NCBI GenBank assembly: GCA_015521775.1
Contig: WANN01000040.1
Location: 1 to 64,000, forward strand
From: Thermoproteaceae archaeon
Lineage (GTDB): Archaea; Thermoproteota; Thermoprotei; Thermoproteales; Thermoproteaceae
Length of the DNA: 64,000 nucleotides
Direction: 5' to 3'
Part shown: one piece after another, positions 14,898 through 59,542 of the stretch
Layout of the letters: each line of letters opens with the position of its first letter
How positions within the stretch are numbered: position 1 is the stretch's first letter
Position numbers and translations under genes: made by a program
Notes under the pieces: model-generated
Database searches by the model: none
What the model was told of the DNA's origin: nothing
The model's input: the letters and a program-made list of their open reading frames with translations, nothing else

Positions 14898-16583
14898 ATG
14901 GTCAAGAGGGGGATTAGGCACCTCATGGGCATACCGGGCGGATCCATTATGCCCCTCTTCGATGCCCTCTACTTTACCAATGACATAGAGGTTGTTCTGT
15001 TCAAGCATGAGCAGGGGGCTGTACACGCGGCCGAGGCCTACGGGCGGATCTCCCGCAGGCCCGCCGTGGCCGCCGTCACCAGCGGGCCGGGCGCCACCAA
15101 CGTAGTGACGGGCGTTGCCAACGCATTCATGGACTCTGCCCCTCTCGTTGTTCTGACGGGGCAGGTCCCCACGTCGATGTTCGGTAGGGACGCGTTCCAG
15201 GAAACGGACATAGTTGGCGTGGTTTCCCCCATAACCAAGTTCGCCTACCTGGTCAAGGACCCAAGCGAGCTTGTTCCCGCGTTCAACACCGCATACGAGA
15301 TCTCCATGATGGGCCGTCCCGGCCCCACCCTCCTGGACCTGCCCAGGGACGTGCAGCTTGCCTCCTCAACGGGCGGCGACGGCTACATGAGGGTCAACTA
15401 CGAGAAGTTCATGCCGCCCATGCCAAACAAGGAGGACATACTGAAGGCGGTCAAACTGTTGCTGGAGGCTGAAAGGCCCGTGATTCTCGTGGGGGGAGGC
15501 GCCTATTGGTCCGGCGCAACAAACGAGGTGTTGGTGCTCGCGGAGATGTTGGGGGCCCCCATAGTGAGCACATTTCCCGGTAAGAACGCGATACCCCATA
15601 ACCATCCCCTGTATATGGGTCCCTCGGGGATGCACGGACGGTTGGAGGCCGACGCGGCCCTGGCCAACGCCGATGTGATCCTCGCCGTCGGCACAAGGTT
15701 CTCCGATAGGACTGTAGGTAGGTTCAAGGAGCTGGCCGACAAGAAAATAATACATGTGGATGTGGATAGAAGCGAGGTCGGCAAGAACGTGAAGCCTTCC
15801 GTCTCGATAATTGCAGATGCGGCCATAGCGCTAAGGGAAATAATATCGTATCTGCCCAACGGAATGAGGCGTAACGAGGAGTTCCTTGCCTGGCTTCGGT
15901 GGATTAGGGCTAGGTTCGAGGAGGCGTTGGAGAAATGGGAGAGGGAGTTCACGTCGTTTGCCCCGTGGAAGGTGATGAAGATGCTTAGGCACGTCATGCC
16001 GCTGGACTCAATAACTGTGACTGGGGTCGGATCGCACCAGATGTGGGCCGAGCTCCATTGGGACGTGTACGTGCCGGGCACGTTCCTCACCTCCGCGGGC
16101 CTGGGCACAATGGGCTTCTGCGTTCCTGCGGCCCTCGGCGCAAAGCTCGCCGCCCCGGACAGGCCGGTACTCTGCATAGATGGGGACGGGTCCTTCCAGA
16201 TGACCATGAACAACCTTTCCCTGGTCAGGGACTACAATCTGCCGATAATAGTGGTCATATTCGACAATAGGGCCCTGATGCTGGTCAAGCAGTGGCAGAT
16301 ATACATGTACTCGAGGAGGATCATAGCCACCGAATTCAGCCACAGGCCGGACTTCCTCAAGATAGCCGACGCCTACGAGATAGAGGGCGTGAGGCCCTCA
16401 ACCTACGAGGAGATCGGCAAGGCCGTGGAGTGGGCGCTCCGCAACAACGAGCCCGTAATAATAGACGTGACGATCGATAACGACAAGGACATAGTCCTGC
16501 CATGGGTCAAACCCGGCGACTGGCTGACCGACGCGGTTAAGCCGCCCGGAATGGAGGACGTGGAGCTAATATGGCGGAGATAG
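14898..16583 (+). CDS. ilvB: Acetolactate synthase large subunit (5' end frameshifted)
   Basis: A ThDP enzyme making acetolactate or acetohydroxybutyrate for valine, leucine and isoleucine synthesis. The in-frame part gives 561 residues beginning MVKRGIRHLMGIPGG. The catalytic Glu is residue 38 in FKHEQGAVHAAEAYGR; VTSGPGATN, TGQVP..GRDAFQETD (acetolactate-synthase type, not pyruvate oxidase) and the ThDP motif IDGDGSFQMTMNNL follow. About 27 N-terminal residues expected of the family lie upstream in another frame. Either one G is missing from the sequence, or the organism really starts at 14898, or a frameshift is read through. It heads ilvB-ilvN-ilvC-ilvD, all overlapping. Confidence 0.92.
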   Translation: MVKRGIRHLMGIPGGSIMPLFDALYFTNDIEVVLFKHEQGAVHAAEAYGRISRRPAVAAVTSGPGATNVVTGVANAFMDSAPLVVLTGQVPTSMFGRDAFQETDIVGVVSPITKFAYLVKDPSELVPAFNTAYEISMMGRPGPTLLDLPRDVQLASSTGGDGYMRVNYEKFMPPMPNKEDILKAVKLLLEAERPVILVGGGAYWSGATNEVLVLAEMLGAPIVSTFPGKNAIPHNHPLYMGPSGMHGRLEADAALANADVILAVGTRFSDRTVGRFKELADKKIIHVDVDRSEVGKNVKPSVSIIADAAIALREIISYLPNGMRRNEEFLAWLRWIRARFEEALEKWEREFTSFAPWKVMKMLRHVMPLDSITVTGVGSHQMWAELHWDVYVPGTFLTSAGLGTMGFCVPAALGAKLAAPDRPVLCIDGDGSFQMTMNNLSLVRDYNLPIIVVIFDNRALMLVKQWQIYMYSRRIIATEFSHRPDFLKIADAYEIEGVRPSTYEEIGKAVEWALRNNEPVIIDVTIDNDKDIVLPWVKPGDWLTDAVKPPGMEDVELIWRR

Positions 16584-48193: not shown

Positions 48194-48835
48194 GTGTCTA
48201 AGGCTCGTTCACGCCAGAAGAAAAGGAAGGGCAGTAGGCGCCTCTTCATAGTGGCCATATTGGCGGTGGTGTTTGCTGAGACGGGGTACATACTGGCCGT
48301 AACAAACATAAATTTGGCGCCGACGCCTGAGCCCACTTCGCTGCCCATAACTGTCAGCAATGTGACTGGGGCGGACCTCCTCGGGCTCACAGTTATGTAC
48401 GGCAAAGTTGGTGACGAGTGGCGTGTCCTCGGCCAACCGCGGATCGTCGACGATTACGTGGTCGTGGTGGCCAACGACGCGGCTTGTCCCCCCTCACAGC
48501 CCGAACTATGTTTCAGGGCGTTAGAGGACCTCTACAACGCTACTGTCGGACATTACAGGTACTTCCTGTACTGGACGAGCGCGGTCGACGGGAGGGCGTT
48601 GAGGGGTGCCAGGGATATAGGCGTGCTCTTGTCGGACCTCAACGTGACCCTGCTACTGCCCAGGGAGGACAGTTTCGAGGATCTGTCCACGTCCATTGGG
48701 CTCCTCCTCGCGTCCCAGGGCCTGGACGCGAGCAGTGCCGTGCTGCCCATAGTGATAGTGTTCGAGGATGGGAAAGCCGTTTTCGCAGGTTACGGAACAG
48801 CGTCGCTTAGGAACGCGAAAAAGGTTGTGGCCTAG
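48194..48835 (+). CDS. Membrane-anchored hypothetical protein
   Basis: 213 residues from GTG 48194: a basic N-terminus (KARSRQKKRKGSRR), one hydrophobic helix (LFIVAILAVVFAETGYILAV) and an outer domain that looks like a thioredoxin-type alpha/beta fold but without a CXXC (it has CPPSQPELC). The GTG is 24 bases after the TTTTTTAAT box. It is divergent from the MetE-like gene and converges with iolB (4-base overlap). No function assigned. Confidence 0.66.
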   Translation: MSKARSRQKKRKGSRRLFIVAILAVVFAETGYILAVTNINLAPTPEPTSLPITVSNVTGADLLGLTVMYGKVGDEWRVLGQPRIVDDYVVVVANDAACPPSQPELCFRALEDLYNATVGHYRYFLYWTSAVDGRALRGARDIGVLLSDLNVTLLLPREDSFEDLSTSIGLLLASQGLDASSAVLPIVIVFEDGKAVFAGYGTASLRNAKKVVA

Positions 48836-49569
48836 GAGTCCCTGGGCTTCAGGTGCGACTGGCCTAGCTGCACGTCCCTGAAGGCCGGGTGTATCTCCAC
48901 CGACAAGTCCCTCTTGCCTGGCGGGGCTGCGATGACCCACGCGTACTTGATGCCGCTGAGGGACGTGCCCACGTTGGGATGGTACCCCCTCGGTATGAGT
49001 ACCACGTCGTAGTCGTGCACAACGTAGGCCCTCTCATCGTTGTCGTCCATGACCATCTGCACAGCGAAGCCCGGATCCACGTCGAAGAATATGTACGCCT
49101 CGGGCTTTTCGTCGTGTCTGTGAGGGGGATAGCTCGTCCACTCGCCGGGCCTCCCCTCAACGAAGCCGGCAATGAATCTGTCCGCTGGGTCCTCCTCGCC
49201 TATGGACACAACGACGGTCCTCCTATAGGTCTCCATCCCTATCGGGAATCTGCGCGCATCCGCATACCTCTTTACGTACATGGGGTGTACCTTGTCGGCA
49301 GGTGCAGAGGCCGCAAAGAGCACCGTCCCGTCCTCTACCAGCAGCCGTGCGTCAAAGTCCCGTGGCACATACGCCATGTCCATGGTATTTACCCACACAT
49401 CGCCGATCTTGGCGCGCCCTTTAAGCGGGAAGACGAGCCTCTCCTTGCCCTTGGGGTCGGGCAACGCCACTTCCCCGCCCCCCATGGCCTTGTAGTTGTA
49501 GAGCGAAAAGCCGTAATAGTCGAATACCAGTAGCCAACGGTTGTACTCCTTTCTGTCCCTGAACAGCAT
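48832..49569 (-). CDS. iolB: 5-deoxy-glucuronate isomerase IolB
   Basis: IolB converts 5-deoxy-D-glucuronate to 2-deoxy-5-keto-gluconate in myo-inositol breakdown. The 245-residue double cupin has WTSYPPHRHDEKPEAYIFF near residues 140-158, the metal-binding His-x-His-Asp..Glu segment typical of IolB, and VLIPRGYHPNVG later with another His. The N-terminal cupin keeps the same hydrophobic pattern. ATAAAA at 49591-49596 is 24 bases before the ATG at 49569, so it may have its own promoter. A start at 49578 adds three residues. Related KduI is unlikely given iolC and iolD next door. Confidence 0.88.
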   Translation of the reverse strand: MLFRDRKEYNRWLLVFDYYGFSLYNYKAMGGGEVALPDPKGKERLVFPLKGRAKIGDVWVNTMDMAYVPRDFDARLLVEDGTVLFAASAPADKVHPMYVKRYADARRFPIGMETYRRTVVVSIGEEDPADRFIAGFVEGRPGEWTSYPPHRHDEKPEAYIFFDVDPGFAVQMVMDDNDERAYVVHDYDVVLIPRGYHPNVGTSLSGIKYAWVIAAPPGKRDLSVEIHPAFRDVQLGQSHLKPRDS

Positions 49570-49628
49570 AAATTGCATTGGCCCGGGCCAATAAAACTGT
49601 TCCGTCTATGCGCCCCGTTAAGGGAGCC

Positions 49629-50579
49629 TCAGAACCCGCCGTGCTGCTCAATGAAGGCGATCACCTCGTCGTACCGCGGCATACCGTCGGAACAGGAGTG
49701 CCGCGTAACTACTATTGACCCCACGGCGTTGCCGAGCCTAGCCGCCTTGTAATAGTCCCACCCCCTGAGGACGCCGTACATGAAGCCGGCGATGAAGCCG
49801 TCCCCAGCGCCCAGCGACTTAAGCATCTCCACCTTGAAGGGGGGCGCATGCACCTCCTCCCCCCTGTGATACACTGTGGAGCCCCTCGCGCCCCTGGTCA
49901 CTACGAGCACCTTCTCGTCCCTGCCCGGAATGGACTTGAGTGCGTCGTCCACATCGTCCCTGCCTGTGGCCGCCATGTACTCGGCCTCATTGCCTATGAT
50001 TATGTCCGCCATGTCCACGGCCTCCATGTAGTACCTTACCCTCTCCTCCTTGGGGGCACTCCACAGGGTGGGCCTCCAGTCCAGGTTCAAGACCGTTAGT
50101 GCGCCCCTCCTCCCGGCCACCTCCAACGCGTGTAGGTTGGCGCTGCGGGACGGCTCGGCGGAGAGGCCAGTCCCAGTAATAACGACGCTCCGCGTTTGCG
50201 AGGCGGCCACCTCAACGTCCCCCCTAGTCACGTACAGGTCCGCGGCGTTTTCCCTGTAGAAGATGAATCTTGATTCCTTTCCGGGAAAAATCTCGGCGAA
50301 GACTATCCCAGTCTTGTGCACGGGGTCCCTCACCACGTGTCGCACGTCGACCCCCTCCCTTTCCAGAAACGCTATTATGAAGTCGCCCAGGTCGTCCGCG
50401 CTGACCCTGGTCACAAGGGCCGCCCTGAGCCCGAGACGCGCCGCGCCCACCACTATGTTGGCCGCGCTTCCCCCAACGTACTTGGCGAACTTGGTCACGT
50501 CGCGCAGGGGAACGTTGAGGTCCAGCGAGTACAGATCTATACCGGCCCTCCCTATGGCGACGATGTCGTAGCTAGACAT
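49629..50579 (-). CDS. iolC: 5-dehydro-2-deoxygluconokinase IolC (PfkB family)
   Basis: The 316-residue ribokinase-type kinase phosphorylates 2-deoxy-5-keto-gluconate. AIGRAGIDLYSLD at the N-terminus, VGGSAANIVVGAARLG (PfkB signature 1) and SLGAGDGFIAGFMYG (signature 2 with catalytic Asp) are visible; GKESRFIFYRENAADL is characteristic of IolC, not ribokinase. ATG 50579 is used rather than the in-frame upstream start at 50606, as it gives the family N-terminus MSSYDIVAIG. It overlaps the end of iolD by 8 bases. Confidence 0.9.
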   Translation of the reverse strand: MSSYDIVAIGRAGIDLYSLDLNVPLRDVTKFAKYVGGSAANIVVGAARLGLRAALVTRVSADDLGDFIIAFLEREGVDVRHVVRDPVHKTGIVFAEIFPGKESRFIFYRENAADLYVTRGDVEVAASQTRSVVITGTGLSAEPSRSANLHALEVAGRRGALTVLNLDWRPTLWSAPKEERVRYYMEAVDMADIIIGNEAEYMAATGRDDVDDALKSIPGRDEKVLVVTRGARGSTVYHRGEEVHAPPFKVEMLKSLGAGDGFIAGFMYGVLRGWDYYKAARLGNAVGSIVVTRHSCSDGMPRYDEVIAFIEQHGGF

Positions 50580-52329
50580 AGGGCGACGGTATGTCCCAGT
50601 GCCCATAGGCCTTAGTCCCGCTGTGTGGGAACCTCCTCTCGACTACCGCCTCGACTACTGTCGGAACCTCCATTTTCAGGGCCTTGGATAGCGCTTCTTT
50701 GTACTCCTCGGGGGTTTCGGCCCTGAAGTACTCGGCGCCGAAGGACCTGGTCAGCTTCTCGAAGTCGATGACGTATGGTGATCCGTCCCTCCTCCTGAAC
50801 TCCGTCGCTATAATCCTCTCGGCGAACCTCCTTATCTGTAGGTCCCTGATGCTCACCCATCCATAGTTGTTGAGCACCACAACGATTATCGGTATGTCCA
50901 GTTGCACGGCCGTGGACAGCTCCACGTTGTTCATCAGGAAGGACCCGTCCCCCTCGACGGCCACCGCCGTCCTTCCCTTGCCCAGGGCCAGCTTAGCGCC
51001 GATGGCTGCGGGCAACGCGAAGCCCATTGTGGAGAAGCCCCCCGAGCTGATGTACGTGTTGGGGTGGTACGACACCCACAGCTGCGAGAATATCTCCTGG
51101 GGGAGGCCCGCGCTCAGGGCGACCACTGCGTCCCGGGGCAACACGTCGCGGGTAAGCTTGACTATGTTTGGTATCCCCATGGGGGCCGCTTTCCTGACCT
51201 CCTCCATTTCGCTTAGCCACCTCTCCTTAAGCTCCCTCATGCGCCTGTACCAGGGCGAGTTCCTGTAGTCCCTCTTGGCGGCCCTCCTCGCTAACTCCAC
51301 ATATATCACCTCGAGGGCGGCCTTGGCGTCGGCCACAATGCCGACCTCAACAGGGTAGTTCTTCCCGACCTCATGGGGATCTAGGTCCACGTGTATGAGC
51401 TTGGTGGGGGGTATGTTGAAAGTGATGCCGGGGACGTAGGAGCTGGTGGTTTCGTCGCTGAACGTGGTGCCCACGGCAAGTATTACGTCGGCCTCCTTGG
51501 CGAGCTCGTTGGCGACAAGGCTGCCGATGTTGCCAGGGTGGAACACGTATAGCTCGTGGTCCTCGGGGAACCCCCCCTTGGCGTCGCCGCGGAACGTGGC
51601 CGCTACCGGCGCCCCGAGGAACTCCGCGACCTTGACGAGCTCCTCGGTGGCCCCCGACATCACCACACCGCCGCCGATCAATATCAGCGGCCTCTCTGCG
51701 GAAAGCAGCAGGTCCACCGCCCTGCGGACTGCCTCTGGGTCCGGATAGATGCGTCCCATGGGCATGTGCCTATAGGGGTCCGGCACCTCCAGTTCTGCCT
51801 TCTCCACCTGTATGTCCATGGGCAGGTCTATCAGTACTGGGCCGGGCCTGCCCGTGACGGCCTCGCGTAGCGCGCCCGTCAACACCCTGGGCAGCTGCCT
51901 AAGGTCAGTCACCAGCCAAGCCCTCTTTGCGAAGTGTTTCATGGCGTTGACGTAGTCCACCCAGTGGTGTCTCTCTATCTCCTGAAATATGCCCATGCCG
52001 AAGAGGTAGGTCTGTATTTGGCCTGTGATCGCGATGAAGGCAGAGGAGTCCACGAAGGCCGTCGCCATGGCTGTGGCCAGGTTGGTGGCCCCTGGACCGA
52101 CCGACGTGGTGACTACGGCGGGGACGCGCCTATTTGCCCTGAAATATCCGTCGGCCATGTGGCCGCCCCACTGCTCGTGTTTGACCGGTATGAATTCTAC
52201 ATCGGGGTACGCGTCTCTCAGGGCGTCAACAAATGCCGCGTTGCCGTGCCCCGGAATACCGAACACATACCTTATGCCCGCCTTCTTTAGAAAGCCAGAG
52301 ACTATTTGGGCTCCAGTATACTCATTCAT
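50572..52329 (-). CDS. iolD: 3D-(3,5/4)-trihydroxycyclohexane-1,2-dione hydrolase IolD
   Basis: The 585-residue ThDP enzyme opens the inositol ring. FGIPGHGNAAFVDAL (with GHGN characteristic of IolD rather than acetolactate synthase), the catalytic Glu52 in VKHEQWGGHMADGY, VTTSVGPGATNL, and the C-terminal ThDP motif EGDGSFLMNN are visible, and YGHWDIP-type ending is close to bacterial IolD. TTTTTAAATT at 52351-52360 is 26 bases before the ATG, giving a leaderless transcript. Downstream genes iolC and iolB follow directly. Acetolactate synthase is the main alternative but the neighbours and GHGN argue for IolD. Confidence 0.88.
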   Translation of the reverse strand: MNEYTGAQIVSGFLKKAGIRYVFGIPGHGNAAFVDALRDAYPDVEFIPVKHEQWGGHMADGYFRANRRVPAVVTTSVGPGATNLATAMATAFVDSSAFIAITGQIQTYLFGMGIFQEIERHHWVDYVNAMKHFAKRAWLVTDLRQLPRVLTGALREAVTGRPGPVLIDLPMDIQVEKAELEVPDPYRHMPMGRIYPDPEAVRRAVDLLLSAERPLILIGGGVVMSGATEELVKVAEFLGAPVAATFRGDAKGGFPEDHELYVFHPGNIGSLVANELAKEADVILAVGTTFSDETTSSYVPGITFNIPPTKLIHVDLDPHEVGKNYPVEVGIVADAKAALEVIYVELARRAAKRDYRNSPWYRRMRELKERWLSEMEEVRKAAPMGIPNIVKLTRDVLPRDAVVALSAGLPQEIFSQLWVSYHPNTYISSGGFSTMGFALPAAIGAKLALGKGRTAVAVEGDGSFLMNNVELSTAVQLDIPIIVVVLNNYGWVSIRDLQIRRFAERIIATEFRRRDGSPYVIDFEKLTRSFGAEYFRAETPEEYKEALSKALKMEVPTVVEAVVERRFPHSGTKAYGHWDIPSPYV

Positions 52330-52369
52330 AGTAATATGACTAGTCTAAGCTTTTTAAATTTTGCCTAGA

Positions 52370-53380
52370 TTACGAGAATTTTACAATCCTTCCCTCAAGG
52401 GCCGACCTCCTGGCATGTTCGGCGAATTCCCCAGCGATCTTTCCGTCCACCTCGTTGGGCATCGTAGGCTTGTCGTCGACTATGCTCTGGGCGAAGGCCT
52501 TTACCTCTTCTATAAACGCCTCACGCCATCTTTCCAGCCACGGCCTAGGACCCACCTCCACCGTGTTTCCACGGTAGGTCTCGGCGTGGTGTTCGAAGAC
52601 GTCGCTGAGGCGTATCATTGCGTCGGTCCCTAGAACCTCTACGCGCAGGTCATAGCCGTAGCTGGAGCAGCGGCTCGCTTCTATGGTCACTATGGGGCCC
52701 TCCCTGTACTTCATGGTTACAACAACGTTGTCGAAGTCGCCGGCGTGGCGATACTCGTCGAAGTAGAGCGCCGCGGCATTGACATAGAGCAACTCAGGCG
52801 GGTAACCCACAAGCCAGTTCACCGTGTCGAAGTCGTGGATCAGCATGTCGTCGAAGACGGCGCCTGGATAGAGTTTCCCTATGCCGAGGCCGGGCGGGGG
52901 CTTTGGGTCCCTGACTATGATATTAAGCGTCAATGGCCTCCCAAGGGTCCCCCCCTCTAAGCTGTCCTTTATCCTCCTGAGACTCCTATCATACCTCCTC
53001 TGAAAACCCACCTGTAGCTTTATTCCGCTCCTCCTCACGACACTGACTATCTCCTCGTCCTCCCTCACATCCGTCCCCATGGGCTTCTCCACGAACACGT
53101 CGATTCCGTGTTCCGCCGCAAGGCGTATCTGTTCCAGGTGCGCCGTGGTGACAGTGGCAATTATCATCCCATCAACCTCGCCCTTGTGGGCGTTGAGGGC
53201 CCGCTCAGCATCGGTGTAGTAAGGCACGTGTAGCTCCTCGCTCACAGCCCTTGCCCTATTGGGATCGACGTCCACGACCGCCACAAGCCTTGCCCGGTCC
53301 ACATGGCGCTTAATGTTACGGGCATGCATGGTGCCCATACGCCCCATCCCCAAAACTATAAGGCCGGCCTTACGCGACAT
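52370..53380 (-). CDS. iolG: Inositol 2-dehydrogenase-like protein IolG (Gfo/Idh/MocA family)
   Basis: The 336-residue NAD-dependent dehydrogenase oxidises myo-inositol to 2-keto-myo-inositol. LGMGRMGTMHARNI at the N-terminus is the Rossmann loop, VFVEKPMGTD near residues 91-102 contains the catalytic Lys, GFQRRYD follows, and DMLIHDFDTVNWLVG near 175-190 has the Asp-x-x-x-His motif of inositol dehydrogenases. Family members also act on other polyols, so inositol is inferred from the iolD-iolC-iolB neighbours. A TTTTTATC box at 53403-53410 (minus strand) is about 26 bases before the ATG. Confidence 0.86.
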   Translation of the reverse strand: MSRKAGLIVLGMGRMGTMHARNIKRHVDRARLVAVVDVDPNRARAVSEELHVPYYTDAERALNAHKGEVDGMIIATVTTAHLEQIRLAAEHGIDVFVEKPMGTDVREDEEIVSVVRRSGIKLQVGFQRRYDRSLRRIKDSLEGGTLGRPLTLNIIVRDPKPPPGLGIGKLYPGAVFDDMLIHDFDTVNWLVGYPPELLYVNAAALYFDEYRHAGDFDNVVVTMKYREGPIVTIEASRCSSYGYDLRVEVLGTDAMIRLSDVFEHHAETYRGNTVEVGPRPWLERWREAFIEEVKAFAQSIVDDKPTMPNEVDGKIAGEFAEHARRSALEGRIVKFS

Positions 53381-53618: not shown

Positions 53619-54320
53619 GTGGAGAGGCCGTTGCTCGTTGCCCATAAGGCGAATCGGCCCAGCATAGCCCGTAGCCTCGCGGCCATGGGTATTAGGCATG
53701 TCGAGATAGACGTAAGGCTGAGGGGGGGCAGGCTGGTGGTGGAGCACGGCGTCGAGATGCCGCGTACAGGTCCCGCGAAAAGGGCCCTTATAGGGCTCCT
53801 TTACAGGATGTTTGACAGGGACCCCATAATGAGGCCGTTGACCCTTGAGGACTACCTTTCGCTCTTTGCGCGTAGCTTCCACTTCTGGATTGACTTGAAG
53901 GGGAGGCACATAGAGGGCGAGGTGCTCAGGCTGCTGGACAAGTACGACGTGGCTCCCCCCACGTTCTTCTCATCGGGCTTCTACGACTCGTTAAAACGCA
54001 TAAAGATGGCAAGGGGCGAGGCCCTAGTCTTCCTGGGCAACATGTCGTTTTACCCACTCGACGTCAAGTGCCTAGTGGGGTCCGTGGGCGCTGACGGGCT
54101 CTCGGTGCAGCACACGTACGTGGATAAGGACCTCGTCGAGAAGGCACATGCAGTGGGCGCGCGGGTCGCCGCTTGGACGGTCAACGACGTGGAGGAGGCC
54201 ATACGTTTGATGGGTCTCGGGGTTGACATAATAATTACCGACGTGCCTGAGAGGATTGGAAACGCCTTGAGCGCAGTGGGGGGACCGAGTGAGAGGCAGG
54301 TCCAGGCAGGGCGCCCATAG
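53619..54320 (+). CDS. Glycerophosphodiester phosphodiesterase (GDPD)
   Basis: The 233-residue TIM-barrel enzyme cleaves glycerophosphodiesters to glycerol phosphate and a polar headgroup alcohol. LLVAHKANRPS, HVEIDVRLRGGRLVVEHGVEM and LDKYDVAP..FFSSGFYDSLKRIK match the GDPD layout, with metal-binding Glu and Asp in VEIDVRL and His in VEHG. The usual first motif AHRG reads AHKA here, a change at a conserved Arg worth noting. WTVNDVEEAIRLMGLGVDIIITDVPE is the typical C-terminal motif. Start is GTG. It lies inside the inositol island. Confidence 0.86.
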   Translation: MERPLLVAHKANRPSIARSLAAMGIRHVEIDVRLRGGRLVVEHGVEMPRTGPAKRALIGLLYRMFDRDPIMRPLTLEDYLSLFARSFHFWIDLKGRHIEGEVLRLLDKYDVAPPTFFSSGFYDSLKRIKMARGEALVFLGNMSFYPLDVKCLVGSVGADGLSVQHTYVDKDLVEKAHAVGARVAAWTVNDVEEAIRLMGLGVDIIITDVPERIGNALSAVGGPSERQVQAGRP

Positions 54321-54970: not shown

Positions 54971-56038
54971 CTAGAGGAGCTGCCCAGTATCCTTGTCGTA
55001 GATGAAGAGCTTCTCGGGGGGGAGTCTGAGTCCTATGGTGTCGCCAGGGGAAACCCTGACCTCGGGTTTCGTGATGACCTTGACTATGTGTTCATCTATC
55101 TGAGCCGTTATCACGGCGTCCTTGCCCAGCGGTTCGAAGACCACGACCCTGGCCTTCACGTCGCCATCGCCGGCAACCTCTATATGTTCGGGCCTTATGC
55201 CGAGGTACACTTCGTCACCTTTCACGTTGCTAACTATGCCGCTGGGGACCCGGTACTTGAAGCCGGGGCACAGTAGGACGCCGCCATCGGCTTCCCAGGT
55301 CAATGTGCAGGGTATCAGGTTCATGGGAAGCGTGCCGATGAATGTAGCCACAAAGGTGTTGGCCGGTCTCCCATAGATTTCGTCGGGGCCCCCAACCTGC
55401 TGTATACGCCCCTCGTTTATCACGACTATCTTGTCCGCCATGGACATGGCCTCCACCTGGTCGTGGGTCACGTATATGGTGGTGACCTTTAACTCCCTCT
55501 GGAGCCTCTTAAGCTCCGCCCTCATGTTTATGCGGAGTAGCGCGTCGAGATTGGAAAGCGGCTCGTCCAACAGTAGGACGCTGGGCTCCTTGGCCAGGGC
55601 CCTGGCCAGCGCAACCCTCTGCTGCTGTCCCCCGGAAAGCTGGCTCGGCCTCCTGTCCAGGAGATGGTCTATGCGCATGAGTTTGGCAACGTCCCTCACC
55701 TTACGGTCTATCTCACTGCGGGGCATCTTCTTCAGCTTTAGGGGAAAAGCTATGTTGTCGTACACGGTCATGTGTGGGTAAAGTGCGTAGCTCTGAAACA
55801 CCATGCCCACATTGCGGTCCTTAGGGGGGAGATCCGTGACGTCCTCAGAGTCGAAGTAGACGTGTCCAGTCGTGGGCTTATATATGCCGGCCACTATTAG
55901 TAGAAGCGTGGATTTCCCTCCGCCCGAGGGGCCTAGGAACACTACGAACTCCCCATCCGCAATGTCCAGATTTACTCCGTCAAGCGCCCTTACCTGGCCA
56001 AAAATCTTAGATACATTTTCGAGCTTTATCGATACCAT
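54971..56038 (-). CDS. ABC transporter ATPase, MalK/UgpC-like
   Basis: The 355-residue CUT1 ATPase has Walker A GPSGGGKS at 36-43, Q-loop FQSYALYPHM near 81-90, signature LSGGQ at 134-138, Walker B VLLLDEP at 154-160, H-loop VTHDQ, and a C-terminal TOBE/OB domain (residues 240-355; GIRPEHIEV). It is divergent from the binding protein and permease genes at 56167-59542, the obvious partners. As the importer at 9531-12509 has no ATPase, this subunit may serve both. TTTAATAA on the minus strand at 56061-56068 is 26 bases before the ATG. Confidence 0.92.
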   Translation of the reverse strand: MVSIKLENVSKIFGQVRALDGVNLDIADGEFVVFLGPSGGGKSTLLLIVAGIYKPTTGHVYFDSEDVTDLPPKDRNVGMVFQSYALYPHMTVYDNIAFPLKLKKMPRSEIDRKVRDVAKLMRIDHLLDRRPSQLSGGQQQRVALARALAKEPSVLLLDEPLSNLDALLRINMRAELKRLQRELKVTTIYVTHDQVEAMSMADKIVVINEGRIQQVGGPDEIYGRPANTFVATFIGTLPMNLIPCTLTWEADGGVLLCPGFKYRVPSGIVSNVKGDEVYLGIRPEHIEVAGDGDVKARVVVFEPLGKDAVITAQIDEHIVKVITKPEVRVSPGDTIGLRLPPEKLFIYDKDTGQLL

Positions 56039-56166: not shown

Positions 56167-57654
56167 ATGGCCGCCCAGAAAACGGGAATAATAATAGCGG
56201 TCATATTGCTCATAATAGGCCTCGTCGTGGGCTACTTCGCGGGACAAGCAGCGGCGCCGGCAGCCACTGAAACGGTTACTGTGACCGCCCCTGGCGCCGG
56301 AGCACAAGTCGTTACAGAGACAGTCACGCAGACAGTAACCACAACGCAGACTGTGACCGCCCCAGCCGCAGGTCCCAAGGAGATAGTGATCAGGGTTTGG
56401 GCTTCCGGCTCGCCTGTGGACGTGACTAGGGTGGACAACGTTGAGCGCGCCGCCGAGATCCTAAACAGGATGCTCGCCGCGGCCGGCGTCGGGGTCACTA
56501 TTAGGGTTGAGAAGCAGTTCTTCCGCGGCGACTACATGGACAAGCTCACAGCGGCCTTCGCCGCGGGCGAGGCGCCCGACATAATAGCCATGAAGAACCT
56601 GCCGGAGCTGGTGGACGGTGGCTACGTGATAGCGCTCGACGGCTATATAGACAAGTACTCGAGGCTCCTTGAGGACGTGTACGACGTGCTGTGGAGGGCC
56701 GTGACGTATAAGGGCCAGATATGGGCTCTGCCGCAGGACACCGAGGTGAGGCCCCTCTACTTTAGGAAGGATGTTTTGAGGAAGCTTGGGTGGAGCGAGG
56801 AGCAGATAGAGGCGTTGCCCGAGAGGATCAGGAACGGCGAGGTGACGCTTCAGGACCTAATCCAGGTGGCAAAGGAGGCCATGGACAAGGGCCTGGTCAG
56901 GTGGGGCTTCTACCACAGGCCCAACTTCGGTGGGACGCCCTTCGTGATACTGTACTACCAGTATGGCGGCGTGCTCCAGGACGAGGCCACCGGCAAGCTG
57001 GTCCTCGATAGGCAGGCAATGCTCAAGATGCTCCAGCTACTCTACAGGATGGCCCAGGTGGACAAGGTGCTCCCAGCGGACATGATAGGCACCGAGTGGA
57101 GGAAGATACACAGCGACTTCGTGAACGGTAGGGTGCTCTTCTGGTTTGGCGGTAGCTGGCACTGGAGCGAGTGGCAGAGGGTGGCATACCACGAGCAGCT
57201 TGGCAAACTCCCCGAGGACTACCTGTGGGAGAACGTTGGCTTCGCCCTGGTCCCGGCGCCCGAGCCCGGCCTGAGGCCAGCCACCCTGTCCAGCCCCTAC
57301 CTGTACTACGTGACTGCCCAGTCGGAGAACCCCGAGCTGGCGTTCCTGCTGATAGCCCTCGCCACCTCGGCGCCGCTGGACGCGATCCATGCCGTCGACA
57401 GCGCGCACCTGCCAGTCAGGAGGACGACGGTGGAGCAGCCGTACTTCGCCCAGTCGGAGTTCCACAGGAAGATAGCGTACATGGTCGAGTACACGACGTT
57501 CGAGCCCTTGCACCCTGGCTGGTCCAAGTACAAGACCGCCTGGATAACCGCCATAACCAAGGTGGAGAAGGGCCAGGCCACGCCAGAGGAGGCGCTTGAG
57601 GAGATGGTGAACACGCTTAGGGCCGAGCTCGGGGACCAGTTAATAGTTAGGTAA
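56167..57654 (+). CDS. ABC transporter substrate-binding protein, family 1
   Basis: The 495-residue binding protein has an N-terminal helix (GIIIAVILLIIGLVVGYFAG) and a Thr/Val-rich linker (residues 30-72), the typical archaeal membrane tether, then the mature part beginning KEIVIRVWASGSPVDVTRVDN. Family features include FAAGEAPDIIAMKNLPELV, WALPQDTEVRPLYFRKDVL and FVNGRVLFWFGGSWHWSEW. The ligand cannot be told from sequence; the iol genes next door make inositol or an inositol glycoside a good candidate. First gene of a three-gene importer operon with its ATPase divergent. Confidence 0.9.
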   Translation: MAAQKTGIIIAVILLIIGLVVGYFAGQAAAPAATETVTVTAPGAGAQVVTETVTQTVTTTQTVTAPAAGPKEIVIRVWASGSPVDVTRVDNVERAAEILNRMLAAAGVGVTIRVEKQFFRGDYMDKLTAAFAAGEAPDIIAMKNLPELVDGGYVIALDGYIDKYSRLLEDVYDVLWRAVTYKGQIWALPQDTEVRPLYFRKDVLRKLGWSEEQIEALPERIRNGEVTLQDLIQVAKEAMDKGLVRWGFYHRPNFGGTPFVILYYQYGGVLQDEATGKLVLDRQAMLKMLQLLYRMAQVDKVLPADMIGTEWRKIHSDFVNGRVLFWFGGSWHWSEWQRVAYHEQLGKLPEDYLWENVGFALVPAPEPGLRPATLSSPYLYYVTAQSENPELAFLLIALATSAPLDAIHAVDSAHLPVRRTTVEQPYFAQSEFHRKIAYMVEYTTFEPLHPGWSKYKTAWITAITKVEKGQATPEEALEEMVNTLRAELGDQLIVR

Positions 57655-57689: not shown

Positions 57690-58682
57690 ATGATCCGGAA
57701 AAGGCTATCCAAGGTCTACGAGAGGATAGCCCCCTGGCTATTCCTCTCCCCAATGCTTGGCCTGACCGTATTTGCCTGGATACTCCCCGTGATATTGACA
57801 GTATATCTCAGCTTCACAGACCTAAGCCTCAAGAACTTCCTGGCCTTTATCAGGGACTTCTTCACGGACCAGGTGCGTTTCACGCTGGAGAACTTCCAGA
57901 GGATGTTCGCAGGCGGGGACCCCTACCTCGCCACCGTGCTTCAGGTGACCGTGTTGTACGTGGGCAGCGTCCTCGTGTTCAACGCGTTCTTCTCGCTGAT
58001 AATGTCCATATCGATAGCCTACTTCATACGTAACGAGGCGATCTCGACGGCGCTGAGGATACTTTGGCTCCTCCCAAGGATAATGCCGCCCGTGGTGTAC
58101 GCATTACTTTGGCACTGGTTCATAGACCCTGACTATGGGCTCCTCAACAAGCTGCTCGCCAGCGTGGGGATACCGCAGTCGTTGTTGCCCAGCAGCTGGC
58201 TGCTCGACCCGCCCTACTCCCAGCTCCTCATGATAATGATAAACGGGTACGTGGGGGCGAGCTTCGGCATGATAATATATACCGCCGCGATAAAGTCCAT
58301 ACCTAGCGACATACTTAACGCGGCCTACGTGGACGGGGCCTCCGAGTTCCAGGTGGCCAGGCGGATAATAATCCCCATGCTCAAGTGGCCCATGCTCTTC
58401 GTGGTGTCCTGGCAGACCCTCAGCCTGTTGGCCTCCTACGAGTACATACTGGCCGTATGGGGCGCGGGAGGGGGATCGGAGGGCGTGGGCATAGCCAGGG
58501 CGGCGAACGTCATGGTGTGGTCCCTCTACTCGTACACGAAGGCCTTCAACGACTACCAGTACGGCTATGCCTCGGCCATCTCGCTGATGCTTGTCTTCAT
58601 CGGGGTCGCGCTGATATACCTTTACTTCAAGATATTCGGCTTCAAGAGGCTCATGGAGCCCAGCAAGGTGCTTGAGAGATGA
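57690..58682 (+). CDS. ABC transporter permease, UgpA/MalF-type
   Basis: A 330-residue permease with six or more hydrophobic helices. The EAA loop, LNAAYVDGASEFQVARRIIIPMLKWPM near residues 209-235, is intact and should contact the ATPase at 54971-56038. It follows the binding-protein gene by 35 bases and overlaps the second permease by 4 bases. CUT1-family membership is clear; substrate unknown. Confidence 0.92.
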   Translation: MIRKRLSKVYERIAPWLFLSPMLGLTVFAWILPVILTVYLSFTDLSLKNFLAFIRDFFTDQVRFTLENFQRMFAGGDPYLATVLQVTVLYVGSVLVFNAFFSLIMSISIAYFIRNEAISTALRILWLLPRIMPPVVYALLWHWFIDPDYGLLNKLLASVGIPQSLLPSSWLLDPPYSQLLMIMINGYVGASFGMIIYTAAIKSIPSDILNAAYVDGASEFQVARRIIIPMLKWPMLFVVSWQTLSLLASYEYILAVWGAGGGSEGVGIARAANVMVWSLYSYTKAFNDYQYGYASAISLMLVFIGVALIYLYFKIFGFKRLMEPSKVLER

Positions 58683-59542
58683 GGCGCAGGGCCTTCGACG
58701 TAGCTGCCAAGTACGTGGTGGTCCTCATCACGGCTGTCATACCCCTGATACCGGTGGTGGCCATGTTCCTCTGGCTGTTCATGCAGAGCGTGAGCGGCCG
58801 CGTCATACTCAGCCTAATACCGGCCGAGCTGACACTGGACAACTGGAGGTTCCTCTGGTCACCGGTACAGGCAGGCCTCAAGGAGTACCCGAACATTTGG
58901 CCCGTAGCGTTCAACTCGCTTCTATTAGCCCTCACCGTGTCCGGCATAGTGGTATTCGTGAGCACTATGGGCGGCTACTCGCTTTCCAGGATGGACTTCA
59001 GGGGCCGGTCCGCCCTCATGCAGTTCATCATAGCCCTACACGCGTTCCCCAGCATAATACTCCTCATAGCCCTCTTCATACTCCTCAACGCCGTGGGGCT
59101 CTACGGCAAGGGCTACATGACGCTCCTCGGCATAGCCCTCATCAAGGCCGGCCTCGAGATACCCATGGCCACCTGGATAATAAAGGGCTTCTTCGACTCG
59201 ATCCCCTGGGACGTGGAGAGGGCGGCATTCGTGGACGGGGCGGGCAGGTGGAGGACCTGGAGGAGCGTCATACTGCCCCAAATACTCCCAGGCATAGGCG
59301 CCGTCTCCATATTCTCCTTCCTGGCGGGCTGGTCCGAGTTCGTCATGGTGTACACCTTCATAAAGGACGAGGCCTACTACACCCTGTCCATACTGATATA
59401 CTACCTAATAGGCGAGTTCAAGTACATCGACTGGGGCCTCCTCGCCGCCATGGGCCTATTCTACACTATACCCACCATAATATTCTTCGGCACGTCCCAG
59501 CGCCTCCTCCTCAAGATATACGTGGGCGGAGTAAAGAGGTGA
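58679..59542 (+). CDS. ABC transporter permease, UgpE/MalG-type
   Basis: The 287-residue second permease, six predicted membrane helices, EAA loop VERAAFVDGAGRWRTWRSVILPQILPGI near residues 178-205. It starts with ATGA overlap after the first permease. With SBP, first permease and the divergent ATPase this completes a full CUT1 importer. Ends 65 bases before the convergent MNT gene. Confidence 0.92.
   Translation: MRRRAFDVAAKYVVVLITAVIPLIPVVAMFLWLFMQSVSGRVILSLIPAELTLDNWRFLWSPVQAGLKEYPNIWPVAFNSLLLALTVSGIVVFVSTMGGYSLSRMDFRGRSALMQFIIALHAFPSIILLIALFILLNAVGLYGKGYMTLLGIALIKAGLEIPMATWIIKGFFDSIPWDVERAAFVDGAGRWRTWRSVILPQILPGIGAVSIFSFLAGWSEFVMVYTFIKDEAYYTLSILIYYLIGEFKYIDWGLLAAMGLFYTIPTIIFFGTSQRLLLKIYVGGVKR

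Follow-up and report, generated by a model that had tools for sequence, protein, structure and literature searches.

A candidate inositol degradation pathway with a distinct IolD clade in a Thermoproteaceae archaeon

We identified a gene cluster in a Thermoproteaceae-family archaeon that probably encodes four enzymes (steps 1, 3, 4, and 5) of an archaeal counterpart to the inositol degradation pathway of bacteria. Judging from sequence, we place the probability of this reading at roughly 0.8. The cluster lies in a 64-kb stretch of DNA, called the window below, from a draft genome that is 81% complete. ORF reading of the window revealed four intact, collinear genes in the order iolG-iolD-iolC-iolB on the minus strand (48832-53380), with gaps of approximately 40-50 nt or short overlaps between them. 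The adjacent iol genes described in a first-pass annotation were thus borne out. The features of the cluster are as follows.

52370-53380, minus strand, iolG: putative Gfo/Idh/MocA inositol 2-dehydrogenase, 336 aa
50572-52329, minus strand, iolD: putative ThDP-dependent trihydroxycyclohexanedione hydrolase of an archaeal type, 585 aa
49629-50606, minus strand, iolC: putative PfkB-family 5-dehydro-2-deoxygluconokinase, 325 aa
48832-49578, minus strand, iolB: putative bicupin 5-deoxyglucuronate isomerase, 248 aa
53381-53618, no strand, divergent intergenic region between iolG and a phosphodiesterase gene: A+T-rich stretches ahead of both starts that appear TATA-like

The true start of iolC may be an internal ATG at about position 50579. 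The iolG-iolD-iolC-iolB order is conserved in a sister genome at 90-95% identity. At 0.597, the GC content of the cluster differs little from that of the window (0.609, with a standard deviation of 0.019 among 4.5-kb pieces), and the cluster is therefore not a compositional outlier. Scans of the 64-kb window for tRNAs and Rfam families gave no matches. The Pfam folds of the four proteins (Gfo/Idh/MocA, ThDP enzyme, PfkB, and KduI/IolB) agree with the iol assignments, and the motifs quoted in the first-pass annotation are present: GHGN, the catalytic Glu of KHEQ, GKESRFIFYRENAADL, and YPPHRHDEKPEAY.

We compared the four proteins with NCBIfam models for the bacterial iol enzymes, a check that gave a divided answer. 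IolC exceeded its cut-off (TIGR04382, 364.5 bits against 300) and was the only one of the four to do so. The other three fell below theirs, namely IolG (TIGR04380, 287 bits against 355), IolD (TIGR04377, 295 against 715), and IolB (TIGR04378, 79 against 205), with matches far above chance. IolC carries the GAGD catalytic motif, and its best PDB matches were 2QCV, a putative 5-dehydro-2-deoxygluconokinase (IolC), and 3PL2. IolG retains the Lys of EKP and the Asp and His of DDMLIHDFD. IolB scored above the cut-off of the Pfam KduI/IolB model (98 bits against 23.9), and its metal site (H153-x-H155, E160, and H200) aligns with that of bacterial IolB. The predicted IolB structure (pLDDT 88) is nearest to Salmonella IolB (2QJV, TM 0.78), ahead of KduI. 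The conserved metal site and the predicted fold support its assignment as IolB. IolG, IolD, and IolB lie in divergent archaeal branches, and their predicted identities hold with the caveat of sub-cut-off scores.

IolB-like cupins matched in 33 of 398 Thermoproteota genomes, and 12 loci that we inspected lacked an adjacent iolC or iolD. These solitary cupins (L188-L199) carry the KduI/IolB-type metal motif and come from several Thermoproteota families. Because close relatives of IolB stand alone in archaea, homology by itself is insufficient to prove the IolB reaction.

The higher NCBIfam scores of the IolD protein came mostly from acetolactate synthase models (up to 410 bits, against 295 for the IolD model). 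These scores favor reading the ThDP protein as an acetolactate synthase or another carboligase, in an operon whose four genes serve an unrelated sugar-acid pathway. From 43 ThDP enzymes we built a tree that took in acetolactate synthases from E. coli and archaea, among them one from the same window that served as an internal control:

14898-16583, acetolactate synthase large subunit, assigned by tree placement

The tree split into two groups with 100/100 support, one of acetolactate synthases together with E. coli glyoxylate carboligase, the other of archaeal IolD, bacterial IolD, and unnamed relatives. Forcing archaeal IolD into the acetolactate synthases was rejected (AU p=0.0012), and forcing it to join bacterial IolD alone was not (AU p=0.33). 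The 14 archaeal IolD sequences formed a single, fully supported clade that was not nested within bacterial IolD. The precise position of bacterial IolD is unsure because its branch is long. At GHGN and some 20 further positions conserved in IolD, such as R193, N274, W371, S433, E470, and W578, the archaeal and bacterial enzymes agree with each other and differ from acetolactate synthases. A fall of IolD inside the acetolactate synthases had been set beforehand as a refutation test. The tree and AU test place it outside them, its residues are of the IolD type, and the genome has a separate, true acetolactate synthase. With the linked iolC gene also above its own cut-off, the carboligase reading of the cluster is very improbable.

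We searched the genome with profiles for the steps not encoded in the cluster. Adjacent genes for an IolE-like protein and a class I aldolase lie on contig C40 at 82.4-84.0 kb, approximately 19 kb past the end of the window, and the first of these matched an archaeal IolE-like profile with an E value of 1.7e-95. Related archaeal loci likewise place a TIM-barrel protein of about 250 aa and a class I aldolase beside IolD. The best NCBIfam match of the IolE-like family, represented by its AG1 relative, was IolE at 74 bits, below the cut-off of 290. IolE was also its best PDB sequence match and accounted for its top four fold matches (model pLDDT 93). The class I aldolase shares 38% identity with the one adjoining Streptomyces iolC, and its family has a profile match to Cgl0159 (PDB 3FOK). 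A methylmalonate-semialdehyde dehydrogenase of the IolA type is encoded on contig C2 (79735-81171; 470.9 bits against a cut-off of 448.5); this enzyme type also serves other pathways. In the C40 region (about 80.6-84.0 kb, L122), genes resembling isopentenyl phosphate kinase and polyprenyl diphosphate synthase converge on the IolE-like and aldolase pair, perhaps by coincidence.

With the IolE-like, aldolase, and dehydrogenase genes found in the same genome, each of the seven steps has a candidate gene, and their co-occurrence strengthens the inositol degradation reading. IolG would oxidize myo-inositol to scyllo-inosose, and the IolE-like protein, a predicted metal-dependent dehydratase encoded beyond the window on the same contig, would convert this to trihydroxycyclohexanedione. 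IolD would then open the ring to give 5-deoxyglucuronate, which IolB would isomerize to 2-deoxy-5-keto-gluconate and IolC would phosphorylate. The class I aldolase adjoining the IolE-like gene may cleave the phosphorylated product to dihydroxyacetone phosphate and malonate semialdehyde, and the CoA-acylating methylmalonate-semialdehyde dehydrogenase encoded on another contig may convert the latter to acetyl-CoA. We infer all of these catalytic activities, the substrate stereoisomer, and the cargo of the neighboring transporter described below. Several points count against the pathway: the iol genes are spread over three places, IolG, IolD, IolB, and the IolE-like family score under the curated NCBIfam cut-offs, IolB has solitary archaeal relatives, the transporter family is common in archaea in which no iolD was found, and the genome is an incomplete draft. 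The first-pass annotation had proposed that the organism degrades inositol or an inositol-derived compound, and the presence of a candidate gene for every step supports this view. It had also named IolE, IolJ, and IolA as the partner set; IolE-like and IolA-type genes were found, but the aldolase belongs to class I rather than to the class II of IolJ.

The genes upstream of iolG may relate to the source of the inositol.

53619-54320, plus strand, putative atypical glycerophosphodiester phosphodiesterase (GDPD/PI-PLC superfamily): Pfam GDPD match of 53 bits, weak PDB matches
54971-56038, minus strand, MalK/UgpC-type ABC ATPase: NCBIfam and Pfam model matches
56167-57654, plus strand, sugar-type solute-binding protein: Pfam SBP_bac_1, 43% identity over 448 aa to the Thermus thermophilus iol-operon binding protein
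57690-58682, plus strand, sugar ABC permease 1: Pfam BPD_transp_1, 37% to a Thermus iol-operon permease
58679-59542, plus strand, sugar ABC permease 2: Pfam BPD_transp_1, 45% to a Thermus iol-operon permease

The transporter is of the MalFGK/Ugp type and probably imports inositol or an inositol-containing compound. Outside the genus, its nearest relatives (approximately 73-80%) occur in archaea in which no iolD was found and where the family is common, so its likeness to the Thermus proteins does not establish specificity for inositol. It may plausibly take up either inositol or one of its phosphodiesters. The phosphodiesterase could release inositol from a phosphodiester. Its sequence begins with a non-canonical HKAN in place of the usual HRG, and a similar HACN form adjoins the same type of transporter in L169.

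These neighbors raise the possibility that the cluster recycles inositol from the archaeal lipids or osmolytes of the organism itself or of others nearby, with the phosphodiesterase cleaving glycerophospho-inositol or di-myo-inositol phosphate. Such recycling is compatible with the pathway proposed above and differs in the source of the inositol. The divergent GDPD gene adjoins iolG, and the same transporter family lies close to a GDPD gene in four other archaeal loci. A match to PF01658 reveals an inositol-1-phosphate synthase domain in this genome, as in 57 of 61 genomes searched, which makes an internal source of inositol possible; the PF07994 profile found no such synthase in the genome, a false negative given the PF01658 match. 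However, the GDPD match is weak, and among iol loci the adjacency of GDPD and iol genes occurs within this genus only. The internal source raised by the first-pass annotation has the PF01658 domain behind it; we consider recycling by the cluster doubtful. An extended model is speculative and unlikely. In it, an archaeal pathway with its own IolD lineage is coupled, in this genus, to a sugar or phosphodiester importer and an atypical GDPD, and salvages inositol that other hot-spring microbes shed in the head groups of archaeal lipids or as di-myo-inositol phosphate. If true, archaeal membrane and osmolyte components would be recycled in a loop.

The cluster might instead act by the same chemistry on another cyclitol or deoxy-sugar acid, such as scyllo- or D-chiro-inositol, an amino-inositol, or a 5-deoxyuronate, with myo-inositol not the natural substrate. 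Gfo/Idh dehydrogenases and sugar isomerases differ in substrate, IolG lies under its equivalog cut-off, and related archaeal loci contain several Gfo/Idh paralogues, zinc dehydrogenases, and a DegT-type aminotransferase. We judge this reading improbable on balance: the genome holds candidates for all of the inositol steps, and the best PDB match of IolG was Thermotoga maritima 3EZY, followed by named inositol dehydrogenases. Among the thaumarchaeal iol loci, DegT-type aminotransferase genes (L048:10372-11616 and L050:8614-9930) encode enzymes that could act on keto-inositols.

We examined the distribution of the inositol degradation genes in archaea. Few genomes carry archaeal IolD: at E<=1e-150 it was found in 7 of the 398 Thermoproteota sampled, and two of the seven genomes contain remoter relatives (L058 and L059) with 46-50% identity. 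IolC and IolB accompany IolD in Desulfurococcaceae AG1, in Thermocladium modestius (a fragmented assembly), and in acid-soil Thaumarchaeota. The gene tables for related loci came from a simple longest-ORF caller, and some neighboring ORFs may be in wrong frames. What the sequences establish is the presence, order, homology, and key residues of the genes, and that the set is conserved in other archaea. In Metallosphaera (L126 and L127) and Nitrososphaerales (L045), IolD occurs with IolE-like, IolG, and MMSDH-type genes and an enolase-superfamily dehydratase, with IolB and IolC not nearby; neither of the two Metallosphaera genomes has a KduI/IolB match anywhere. Haloarchaeal plasmids (L079 and L081) carry an IolD-type enzyme, an enolase-superfamily sugar-acid dehydratase, and iolM (scyllo-inosose 3-dehydrogenase), again with no IolB or IolC nearby. 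The clusters of IolD with an enolase-superfamily dehydratase in these three groups, most of which also contain Gfo/Idh, IolE-like, and MMSDH-type genes, possibly represent a non-phosphorylated inositol route. Plasmids from Rhizobium, Priestia, and Arthrobacter (L080, L082, L083, and L084) encode IolD-like ThDP enzymes that are 38-44% identical and lie near hisD-type dehydrogenase genes. These enzymes are annotated as thiamine pyrophosphate-binding protein or acetolactate synthase, and GMC oxidoreductases are nearby in the two Rhizobium plasmids.

A bacterial origin of the cluster, from Thermotogae or Firmicutes, had been raised by the first-pass annotation and found no support, since archaeal IolD forms its own clade outside bacterial IolD. 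Recent transfer from bacterial iol clusters is likewise unsupported: archaeal IolB is also not nested among its bacterial counterparts, and the GC content is ordinary.

Homologs of these genes in archaea have been reported. A 2022 survey, in its available text, noted homologs in Thermocladium modestius, Desulfurococcaceae, and Halobacteriales, yet judged the pathway to be restricted to Bacteria (PMC9430895). The available text of a 2023 study describes the gain of iolB, C, E, and G by the ancestor of Gagatemarchaeaceae and lists no IolD (PMC10640624). These are the same gene families that we describe, and we also recovered the loci of Thermocladium, Desulfurococcaceae AG1, and Gagatemarchaeum (L051, L039, and L041). 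Among open-licence papers, the available text of these two covers neither a Thermoproteaceae-family genome nor the aldolase. New, therefore, are a full set of candidate pathway genes in an archaeon of the Thermoproteaceae family and the distinct archaeal IolD clade seen in the tree; annotation models score the members of this clade higher as acetolactate synthase. The candidate gene set of this archaeon and the parallel ones of other Thermoproteota and Thaumarchaeota make the conclusion of a Bacteria-only pathway directly testable. They also suggest that inositol may serve as a source of carbon in hot-spring and acidic-soil habitats.

The iol cluster of B. subtilis comprises iolABCDEFGHIJ. The archaeal genes have the enzyme set G-E-D-B-C-aldolase-A in common with this cluster and with the plasmid-borne iol operon of Thermus thermophilus, whose sugar ABC transporter resembles the archaeal one. 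Unlike the bacterial cluster, the archaeal genes occupy three places with no regulator recognized beside them, and archaeal IolD, IolB, IolG, and IolE fall under the cut-offs of the bacterial families. The archaeal IolE-like protein is also shorter (about 250 aa, compared with about 300 in bacterial IolE), and the aldolase is of class I, whereas those of Thermus and Priestia are annotated as class II. This aldolase is 36-38% identical to those neighboring iolC in Streptomyces and Clavibacter and is likewise next to iol genes, but it adjoins iolE here and iolC or iolD in Thaumarchaeota. The Thermotoga maritima inositol route uses IolG, IolM, IolN, and IolO and, to our knowledge, proceeds without IolD, IolB, or IolC. 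Archaeal IolG resembles the T. maritima enzyme (3EZY), whereas haloarchaeal plasmids differ from that route in pairing iolM with an IolD-like enzyme.
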